Assembly (NCBI GenBank): GCA_946184675.1
Contig: CAMHFW010000005.1
Span: 1 to 32,022, forward strand
Length of the DNA stretch: 32,022 nucleotides
Direction: 5' to 3'
Source of the DNA: an uncultured Clostridia bacterium
Lineage (GTDB): Bacteria; Bacillota; Clostridia; Lachnospirales; Lachnospiraceae
Positions 25,830 to 29,988 of this stretch are shown here, piece after piece. Positions within the stretch are counted from its first letter, which is position 1. The number at the start of each line of letters is the position of its first letter. Under the pieces are notes generated by a model, which was not told the DNA's origin, did no database searches, and saw nothing but the letters and a program-made list of their open reading frames with translations. Made by a program: the position numbers and the translations under genes.

Positions 25830-26564
25830 TTACAAATCTACTTTTCTCTTAGGATCATGGAATTCCGGGAGACGTTTTTCATAGGCTGCCACTGCCACTT
25901 CCTCAAAGGCCAGGGTCACATCTCCCGCTCCAGCAAGCCGCAGCAGGTATTTGGCAAAATACGGATTCATGATCAGGATAGGACCGGTCAGGTATGTTCC
26001 AAAGAAATTGCCCATCCGGATACCCTCCTGGTCAAAGGCCTTATTCAAGCCATAACCGCGGATCTTCCGGAAACAGTAACCTTCCGCCTTGTCAGCGTAG
26101 GTCTGCGTAAACTGGCTCTTAAAGCCAATGATTTCCATGTCCTTTCCTGTGTCGTCTGTCAGTGTCCCCAGAAACATGGAATTGTGGCGCTGCATCATGC
26201 GGCGGACAGCATATCCCTCATAAAGACCCAGACAGGGAATCCGGCTGCCGTCATCCTTTTCGATATAGGAACCAAATACTTCAAAGGCATTACCTGTAAA
26301 AAGCATGACTTTGCCGGCATCAATCAGCTGACGGAGCCTGTCTGTATAAGGACGAAGTCTGTCTATGACATACTCCTGCTCCTTCTCGGGCATGGCTCCC
26401 ATATAGATCATATCCACATCTTCCGTCACAAAGCGCGGCGTCTCATTCAGGGAAGTATAGATAAACTCTGCCTGTCCCTGCAGGCTTTTCTCCAGGTATG
26501 TGACATTAAACCTGTCACCGTAGAGGTTGCAGGCTTCTGTGTAAAGTGCTTCGATTTTAATCAT
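25830..26564 (-). CDS. GatD-like type 1 glutamine amidotransferase, predicted catalytically degenerate
   Basis: 244 aa; fold and operon position of GatD (overlaps the MurT-like gene), but TGNAF replaces CGGYQ and GTYLTGP replaces GTYLHGP. Confidence 0.85.
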   Translation of the reverse strand: MIKIEALYTEACNLYGDRFNVTYLEKSLQGQAEFIYTSLNETPRFVTEDVDMIYMGAMPEKEQEYVIDRLRPYTDRLRQLIDAGKVMLFTGNAFEVFGSYIEKDDGSRIPCLGLYEGYAVRRMMQRHNSMFLGTLTDDTGKDMEIIGFKSQFTQTYADKAEGYCFRKIRGYGLNKAFDQEGIRMGNFFGTYLTGPILIMNPYFAKYLLRLAGAGDVTLAFEEVAVAAYEKRLPEFHDPKRKVDL

Positions 26565-27952
26565 GCCTGCTTCCCTCCCCTGATGGCGTCTTTGACAGTC
26601 TGGCGGATCTTTTCATAATTTACCATCTGATGCATATCATAAATGATGTGCACGTCAATATCCTTGCTGAAATGCATCAGTTTCGGAATATCGCTGATGT
26701 TTTCTGTGCAGTGAATACGGTCTTCATCGATTCCCGCAAGAAGCATGCGGAGCAGATAATCCTTGGAACGCACACCGATAACTACAATATTTTCTATCAG
26801 AGGATCATTCAGGAATTCAAAATCCGTATCGTACATATAGGTCAGATTTTCCGATGCAATGACGTTGTAATCGGTATCCTCGATCATGAGAACGATTTCC
26901 TTGCGGTGAGGCAGATTTCTGACATAGTCAAATACCACGCTGACCGCCGGCGCGATCCAGCTCTTAGCCATGGTGGAAATGACCTGGATCCCGTTTACAA
27001 CTTCGAATCTGTACCGGGAATCCACGATCCTGGTATCCGCAAGGGCATCGCAGATCTTGTCTGCAGAAACGCCGAAAGTTCGCAGGAAGGTAACGACCGT
27101 CAGCTCATTATAGATGTTAAAGATACTATCAGATACCATGGGATACTCTTCCCGCATTCCATTATGCTCAATGGTGACGAGACGGTTATCATAATCGATA
27201 GCGCTTACGTGGAAATCCGGTTCCGGAGATCGGAGTCCGCATTTTGGACAGTGCACTCTGCCGATCTGGTTATAGCGGACATAGTCATACTCCAGTGTTT
27301 CCTGACAGCGGGGACAGATTCTCATATCATTGAGAATATTAAAAGGCTCTGTCCGGTCTTCCGGCTGGCGGTCAATGGAGTAATAAATCCGCTTATTATC
27401 TTTCTTCAGGCGGCTGCTTAAGATATCATCCGCATTGAGGAAAAGGGTCGTGGTATCGGGCATGGCCTGCTCAATGATATCGTAGATAAAATGGGGATGA
27501 GCATTTCTCATGCAGGAATCCCGAAAGAGATTGGTGCAGATGGTATAGTCCGGTCTCACGTAAGGATAGATCCTGAGAGAGCTTCTCTCATCCACCTCCA
27601 GAACTGCCAGAGGATAACGGGGTTTATTGGACAGGCTGACGCCGTTCATCAGACAGGTCGCGATTCCGGAAGCGATATTGCCGCCCTCCCGGTTGGAAAG
27701 AACCTGATAGCCGCTCTTTTCCAGGACATCGACAATCATATTCGTTGTCGTTGTTTTTCCGTTTGTTCCTGTTACAGTCACAATTTGGGGAGGTCTGCCT
27801 ATATACTTCAAAAAGTCCGGGCAGATCTTAAGAGCAACCTCTCCCGGAAGGTTGGTGCCGCCCCGGTGCATGACTTTTCCAAGCACCTTGCAGCCAATCA
27901 CAGCTAATTTCCCTGCAAGCAGGGCGCAATAAAATCTAAACATAATAATCAA
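26561..27952 (-). CDS. MurT-like Mur ligase family protein (lipid II isoglutaminyl synthase-type)
   Basis: 463 aa; VTVTGTNGKTTTTNMI P-loop; Cys4 zinc ribbon CPRC...CPKCG; C-terminal MurT domain. Confidence 0.9.
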   Translation of the reverse strand: MIIMFRFYCALLAGKLAVIGCKVLGKVMHRGGTNLPGEVALKICPDFLKYIGRPPQIVTVTGTNGKTTTTNMIVDVLEKSGYQVLSNREGGNIASGIATCLMNGVSLSNKPRYPLAVLEVDERSSLRIYPYVRPDYTICTNLFRDSCMRNAHPHFIYDIIEQAMPDTTTLFLNADDILSSRLKKDNKRIYYSIDRQPEDRTEPFNILNDMRICPRCQETLEYDYVRYNQIGRVHCPKCGLRSPEPDFHVSAIDYDNRLVTIEHNGMREEYPMVSDSIFNIYNELTVVTFLRTFGVSADKICDALADTRIVDSRYRFEVVNGIQVISTMAKSWIAPAVSVVFDYVRNLPHRKEIVLMIEDTDYNVIASENLTYMYDTDFEFLNDPLIENIVVIGVRSKDYLLRMLLAGIDEDRIHCTENISDIPKLMHFSKDIDVHIIYDMHQMVNYEKIRQTVKDAIRGGKQA

Positions 27953-28006: not shown

Positions 28007-28035
28007 ATTGTAACACAAGCGTCAAGTTCTGTCGA
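28007..28035 (-). promoter_or_regulatory. candidate sigma-A promoter for murT/gatD-like operon
   Basis: Minus strand TCGACA-17 nt-TACAAT, about 55 nt upstream of the 27952 start; followed by a GCGGC/GCCGC leader hairpin (27970-27987). Confidence 0.6.
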
Positions 28036-28835: not shown

Positions 28836-29988
28836 CTATTCGATGATCTCGATTACTCGGCCTGATCCTACTGTGTGGCCACCCTCACGGATAGCGAATG
28901 TAAGACCCTGCTCCATAGCGATCGGGTGAAGAAGCTTAACTTCCATAACTACGTTGTCACCAGGCATGCACATGGGAACATCCTCAGGAAGGCTGATGGT
29001 TCCGGTGATGTCGGTTGTTCTGAAATAGAACTGCGGGCTGTAGTTGTTTACGAAAGGAGTGTGACGGCCGCCCTCTTCCTTCTTAAGAACGTAAACCTGA
29101 AGCTGCAAGAACCTGGCCTCTCTCGATCTCGTCTCTCTTAACACCACGAAGGAGTGCGCCAACATTGTCGCCGGCCTCAGCATAGTCAAGAGTCTTACGG
29201 AACATCTCAAGACCTGTGCAGACAACCTTTCTAACCTCTTCCTTAACACCAACGATCTCAACTTCGTTGTTGACATTGATAGTACCTCTCTCTACACGAC
29301 CGGTAGCAACGGTACCACGACCGGTGATGGTGAATACGTCCTCGACGGGCATAAGGAAAGGCTTATCAACGTCACGCTGAGGATCCGGAATGTAGCTGTC
29401 AACAGCGTCCATAAGCTCCATGATCTTGTCGCCCCACTCGCTGTCGGGATCTTCAAGAGCCTTCAGAGCGGAACCCTGGATGATCGGGCATCCCTCGAAC
29501 CCATACTCGTTAAGGATATCTTCGATATCCATCTCAACGAGCTCAAGAAGCTCAGGGTCGTCAACCATGTCGATCTTGTTCATGAATACTACGATGTAAG
29601 GAACACCTACCTGTCTGGAAAGAAGGATGTGCTCTCTTGTCTGAGCCATAACACCGTCAGTAGCAGCAACTACGAGGATAGCGCCGTCCATCTGAGCAGC
29701 ACCGGTGATCATGTTCTTGATGTAGTCAGCATGTCCCGGGCAGTCAACGTGTGCGTAATGTCTCTTCTCAGTCTCATACTCAACGTGTGCGGTGGAGATT
29801 GTGATACCACGCTCTCTCTCTTCGGGAGCCTTATCGATATTCTCGAAATCAACAGCTGCGTTGCCGGCTACTCTCTTGGAGAGAACCTTTGTGATTGCTG
29901 CAGTAAGAGTTGTTTTGCCGTGGTCAACATGTCCGATGGTTCCGATGTTGCAATGCGGCTTAGTACGCTCGAATTTAGCTTTTGCCAT
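28836..29988 (-). pseudogene. tuf: elongation factor Tu, frameshifted by an internal deletion
   Basis: N-terminal 301-aa ORF (29083-29988) to ...[12 protein letters not shown]; the C-terminal part ([16 protein letters not shown]...VIEIIE) continues in another frame to 28836. Junction at about 29100-29103. Confidence 0.93.

Follow-up and report, generated by a model that had tools for sequence, protein, structure and literature searches.

A gene pair in a stretch of 32,022 nucleotides from an uncultured rumen or gut bacterium of the Lachnospiraceae (here called the window) raises the question of what a MurT/GatD-like complex does once its GatD half has lost the catalytic Cys and His. An earlier note, made from the sequence alone, took the gene for a maintained pseudoenzyme and left three options for the pair: the use of free ammonia, no amidation at all, or a different ligase reaction.

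The pair in the window

The GatD-like frame is intact and its start overlaps the MurT-like frame by 4 nt (Table 1). The protein matches Pfam GATase_3 (31.9 bits against a cut-off of 27) and the solved GatD chains 9sq9, 5n9m, 6gs2 and 6fqb (E values of 9e-16 to 1.5e-12). An AF2 model built with 65 sequences from the window and related loci has a pLDDT of 95.8, and its best PDB matches are GatD structures (TM 0.77 to 0.80), with CPS1 also among the fold matches. By sequence and fold the protein belongs with GATase_3/GatD, and the earlier description of an intact GatD-like gene overlapping its partner holds. The partner matches MurT chains 7q8e/6gs2 at an E value of 5e-53, exceeds the Pfam cut-offs for both the Mur ligase middle domain and MurT_C, and misses the NCBIfam MurT equivalog cut-off (194 and 191 bits against 800). 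A promoter before the pair had been thought plausible, and a 10/12 match with an extended -10 does lie some 55 nt before the murT-like start; a scan finding 6 sites against 3.6 in shuffled sequence makes it weak evidence.

Table 1. Features of the pair and of its former active site, in window coordinates
Feature	Position	Strand	Basis
GatD-like pseudo-glutaminase gene, 244 aa	25830..26564	-	ORF list, Pfam, PDB matches, AF2 model
GTYLTGP, T193 (25986-25988) in place of catalytic His189	25980..26000	-	alignment
K149-S150-Q151-F152 in place of the canonical E-N-H-G motif	26109..26120	-	alignment
T90-G91-N92, former nucleophile elbow	26289..26297	-	alignment; G91 codon 26292-26294 at the place of S. 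aureus Cys94
G56-A57-M58 in place of oxyanion-hole GGG	26391..26399	-	alignment; GGG role from PMC6085368
MurT-like Mur ligase gene, TTG start, in-frame ATG at 27943	26561..27952	-	Pfam, 7q8e/6gs2 MurT matches
MurT Asn369 in place of triad Asp349 (S. aureus MurT)	26846..26848	-	alignment; D349 role from PMC6113224
MurT Cys4 zinc ribbon, intact	27239..27316	-	alignment
MurT D145-H154 (DSCMRNAHPH), remodelled GatD-facing loop	27491..27520	-	alignment; canonical DQ[LM]DR[YF]GE
MurT GTNGKT ATP-binding motif, intact	27752..27769	-	alignment
Promoter-like site (-35/-10) upstream of the pair	28007..28035	-	consensus match only

Alignment with S. aureus GatD bears out the absence of both catalytic residues. 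The TGN codons are where the earlier note placed them, and His189 aligns with Thr193 as it had proposed; its reading of Cys as Thr was wrong, as the nucleophile Cys94 aligns with Gly91 and not with Thr90. Beyond its list, the oxyanion GGG has become GAM, the ENHG motif KSQF, and MurT Asp349 an Asn. In S. aureus, GatD C94 and H189 form the catalytic triad with MurT D349, and with D349N the enzyme is severely impaired or inactive (PMC6113224); the roles of the GatD-facing MurT loop, the MurT Asn and the oxyanion GGG are taken from PMC6085368. Without the Cys, the His and the GGG, and at 81 bits against the NCBIfam GatD equivalog cut-off of 400, the window protein is not a GatD glutaminase as judged from its sequence. 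The MurT half has the ATP site (GTNGKT, E108 and N267) and Cys4 zinc ribbon of its family and lacks Asp349.

The nearby tuf gene (EF-Tu; 28836-29988, minus strand) is split over two frames; the shift lies close to where the 301-aa N-terminal ORF stops and is probably an error of assembly.

Spread and remodelling of the family

A search with 11 degenerate sequences found 402 relatives in one genome collection. The 80 that were retrieved come from MAGs and isolates labelled Lachnospiraceae, Oscillospiraceae, Acutalibacteraceae, Clostridiaceae, Erysipelotrichaceae and others, and cultured carriers of degenerate pairs include Coprococcus catus and Frisingicoccus caecimuris DSM 28559. Among 397 genomes of the window's family, 18 carry a degenerate pair and about 66 a canonical one, judged by scores and by reading the loci. 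A MurT-like gene adjoins the pseudo-GatD in nearly every locus with enough flank, the two frames overlap in 66 of 108 pairs (canonical ones counted too), and in five loci the pair is fused. A model of one 717-aa fusion (pLDDT 94, pTM 0.91) has halves that match MurT and GatD structures.

The first alignment separates the two types completely: all 22 canonical rows have both Cys and His, and all 100 degenerate rows have neither. The Cys of the canonical xCGG[YF]Q motif is found in 0 of these 100, its place being taken by Gly in 90 and otherwise by Ser (7/100), Asn or Ala; the His of [ST]Y[LFS]HGP, Thr in the window protein, is L, I or V in most homologues; and the oxyanion triplet mostly reads G-[PSAT]-M. 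In the MurT partners, position 349 is Asn in 77/100, and eight non-Asp residues cover 99/100. The degenerate MurT proteins keep GTNGKT, E108, N85, N267, R298, K315 and the four zinc Cys, and the alignment shows the acceptor Asn (S. aureus N85) conserved across MurT-like proteins.

Eleven GatD positions hold one conserved residue in canonical proteins and another in degenerate ones, and eight of these (61, 63, 94, 95, 96, 98, 147 and 149, S. aureus numbering) lie in or beside the old active site, which argues that this site, as read from the alignment, is remodelled and not decayed. Within the degenerate set, conservation is higher in columns of the old active site than elsewhere in the protein (mean 0.80 vs 0.60, p=1.6e-4, a value that is indicative because the rows are related). 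New signatures have appeared, T-G-N-[AS]-x-E, in which N92 is invariant, and K-S-Q-F, and the GatD-facing MurT loop has become DSxxRN[AG]H, with its positions 135, 139 and 141 among the switched MurT residues. The proposal of a maintained pseudoenzyme is supported by this clade-wide change, the newly conserved old site, the pairing with MurT, the occasional fusion and the lost Asp of the partner. It is well supported that this GatD is real, widespread and non-catalytic; its MurT partner is expected to be competent as a ligase, in a complex predicted to be without its glutaminase. As the same change is common to hundreds of relatives, the ammonia-making half has probably been re-purposed.

Class-level loci add further degenerate subclades (GSG...TGN...VNK) and two genes without the Cys yet with the His, so that the loss, on sequence grounds, probably occurred more than once. 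In a MurT tree, rooted at its midpoint only, canonical MurT proteins form one group (support 98), and the degenerate lineages fall outside it. Genome G003, of the window's genus, holds four pairs from different subclades, and tandem arrangements occur. In Frisingicoccus and G317 (L094, L224) a full pair is followed by a 372-aa MurT without zinc ribbon and another pseudo-GatD, and at L073 and L078 the gene order is GatD-MurT-MurT-GatD, the two MurTs of each cluster coming from different subclades.

A second, canonical MurT/GatD pair, which the earlier note had suggested looking for, was not found in the window's genome (87% complete), which has one MurT_C only and whose other GATase_3 matches include the HisH-type L003; this fits a maintained pseudo-glutaminase. 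Within the family sample no genome has both pair types, where 3.0 were expected (P=0.035). Two genomes, G742 (L191, L203) and G438 (L190, L199), carry a divergent degenerate pair in addition to a canonical one, and L199 of G438 has lost the Cys and kept the His.

Gene neighbours and wall chemistry

No neighbour is general to degenerate pairs, and most pairs have no informative one. A diaminobutyrate-2-oxoglutarate aminotransferase gene adjoins 8 of the 80 pairs, which are spread over several subclades. It mostly lies downstream of the pair, with one case upstream and one behind a fused pair; all five of these enzymes that were tested exceed the NCBIfam NF006733 cut-off. The gene is rare, in 9/397 and 9/391 genomes of two samples, and is enriched with degenerate pairs in both (5/18 vs 4/379, p=1.2e-5, and 4/30 vs 5/361, p=0.003; Fisher tests that ignore phylogeny). 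Elsewhere it adjoins MurE-type ligases (G693, G777, G677) or a Mur ligase (G234), which ties diaminobutyrate to wall precursors. It is absent from the window's genome and from G003 of the same genus, so the amine used by the window's pair would have to differ.

Other neighbours were seen at some loci. In G234 (L136) an AsnB-like gene adjoins the aminotransferase and the Mur ligase, and in G208 (L227) one directly follows a divergent pseudo pair. Genes of the sugar-transfer associated ATP-grasp type (PF14397) lie by pseudo pairs or the aminotransferase at L038, L067, L079, L095, L138 and L215, three being tested by Pfam and the rest assigned by clustering or by eye.

The window's genus has peculiarities of its own. 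DapF (diaminopimelate epimerase) and DAP dehydrogenase are both absent from all six of its genomes (G000-G005), leaving them without the usual route to meso-DAP; DapF is present in most members of the family. The MurE proteins of G000, G003 and G002 (L186, L180 and L182) read GHNRWE where DAP-type MurE has DNPR, and G000 carries a further MurE-like gene (L179) that differs from the first. We draw no conclusion on MurE specificity from GHNRWE, as it preserves the Arg of DNPR. Together this suggests that the genus has an unusual stem peptide. We rejected the idea that DapF was lost as a consequence of pseudo-GatD, as G005, which has a canonical pair, lacks DapF and other carriers of degenerate pairs have it; with G005 sharing the suspected unusual wall chemistry, that chemistry is not tied to pseudo-GatD.

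The reaction of the complex and its meaning

The reading we favour, at a probability of roughly 45%, is an ATP-dependent ligase in which pseudo-GatD has ceased to make ammonia and assists in bringing another amine, probably an amino acid, to the activated carboxyl of D-Glu. From its conserved motifs and family, MurT is expected to bind ATP and to activate a carboxylate, most likely the D-Glu alpha-carboxyl of a lipid-linked peptidoglycan precursor. The complex would no longer hydrolyze glutamine, since the Cys, His, oxyanion Gly and MurT Asp are lost. The remodelled GatD pocket and MurT loop may instead admit or hold another amine, likely an amino acid and in some members possibly 2,4-diaminobutyrate, which would attack the acyl-phosphate to give an amide branch; sister pairs in one genome may differ in amine or in order of addition. 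The remodelled active site, the changes in MurT and the pairing with it, the aminotransferase beside some pairs, diverged pairs within one genome and the rarity of both pair types together count in favor of the amino-acid reading, and the attachment of amino acids (Gly, D-Ser) to the D-Glu alpha-carboxyl has precedent (PMC11555704). Counting against it are the window genome without the aminotransferase, the many pairs without an informative neighbour, and G742 with both pair types.

A strong rival, if a less probable one, is amidation with free NH3/NH4+, giving D-isoglutamine, with pseudo-GatD kept only as a structural partner that MurT needs. Ammonia is plentiful in rumen and gut, and the MurT ATP site and acceptor Asn are kept. 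A new amine does not follow from the lost Cys by itself, as S. aureus GatD-C94G, carrying the same Cys-to-Gly change, still supports NH3-dependent amidation of lipid II with MurT in vitro at pH 8.5, a reaction for which MurT needs GatD (PMC3266927). Human CPS1, with its inactive glutaminase-like domain, is a precedent (PMC4655335) and was itself a fold match. At pH 7.5, however, the S. aureus enzyme uses no ammonia (PMC3266927), and free ammonia alone leaves unexplained the newly conserved residues of the old glutamine pocket and loop, the four diverged pairs of G003 and the link with the aminotransferase. Among the three options of the earlier note, we therefore favor a different ligase reaction over free ammonia, and consider that the pair amidates nothing the least likely, because the ATP/ligase site is conserved.

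It is rather improbable that the carboxylate is another one, on a different stem residue or a non-wall metabolite, or that pseudo-GatD is a regulatory ligand sensor gating MurT. The conserved pocket could be a sensor site, some members adjoin ATP-grasp (PF14397), AsnB-like or other genes, and the genus-wide absence of DapF and DAP dehydrogenase suggests unusual wall chemistry; the acceptor-side MurT residues, however, are conserved with canonical MurT, and the near mutual exclusion of the two pair types points, weakly, to the same acceptor. A glutaminase still active through a substitute nucleophile or a triad elsewhere is very unlikely: Ser at the Cys position in a few homologues and a Cys12 in 62% of the family speak for it, but Gly prevails at the nucleophile position (90%), no alternative Cys or His exceeds that 62%, the oxyanion Gly and MurT Asp are gone, and C94S and C94G abolish glutamine-dependent activity in S. 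aureus (PMC6113224; PMC3266927). A decaying pseudogene or assembly artefact, brought to mind by a fragmented, MAG-like assembly (209 contigs) and the frameshifted tuf, is ruled out for the family by intact, overlapping frames and by 100 aligned homologues, taken from many genomes and all with open frames, that have lost the same residues; it has next to no probability.

The pair shares with the lipid II isoglutaminyl synthase MurT/GatD of S. aureus, S. pneumoniae and S. pyogenes both folds, the overlapping operon, the MurT ATP motif, zinc ribbon, acceptor Asn and hinge Arg. It differs in lacking the GatD Cys, His and oxyanion Gly and MurT Asp349, in having the new TGN[AS]xE, KSQF and MurT DSxxRN[AG]H motifs, and in being sometimes fused or multi-copy. 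Like the pair, human CPS1 is a synthetase that retains a glutaminase-like partner without the catalytic Cys (Ser294; PMC4655335), but it has ATP-grasp phosphorylation domains in place of a Mur ligase and takes its nitrogen from free ammonia. MurC-F, the pseudomurein ligases and cyanophycin synthetase have the same ligase fold as the MurT half, and what they couple to an activated carboxyl is an amino acid and not ammonia, as is proposed for the pair. A GATase subunit is absent from them, and they carry an extra N-terminal domain or another architecture.

Taken further, and as an unlikely though specific form of the amino-acid proposal, pseudo-GatD/MurT pairs would be undescribed ligases of peptidoglycan branching or cross-bridge formation that attach an amino acid (2,4-diaminobutyrate where the aminotransferase adjoins) to the D-Glu alpha-carboxyl, with the dead glutaminase as amine-binding subunit, a step needed by 2-4 (B-type) cross-links. 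The literature searched, mostly outside subscription journals, held nothing specific on a pseudo-GatD or a D-Glu branching enzyme.

Several pathogens cannot do without MurT/GatD, and amidation of D-Glu influences both cross-linking and immune sensing. Automated annotation would probably label the proteins described here GatD amidotransferases. A large gut and rumen clade that has kept the machine but given up its glutaminase illustrates how the nitrogen donor of an amidotransferase can change. If amino acids are attached, these pairs would be candidate enzymes for D-Glu-linked branches, and the wall chemistry of many uncharacterised gut Clostridia would become predictable.
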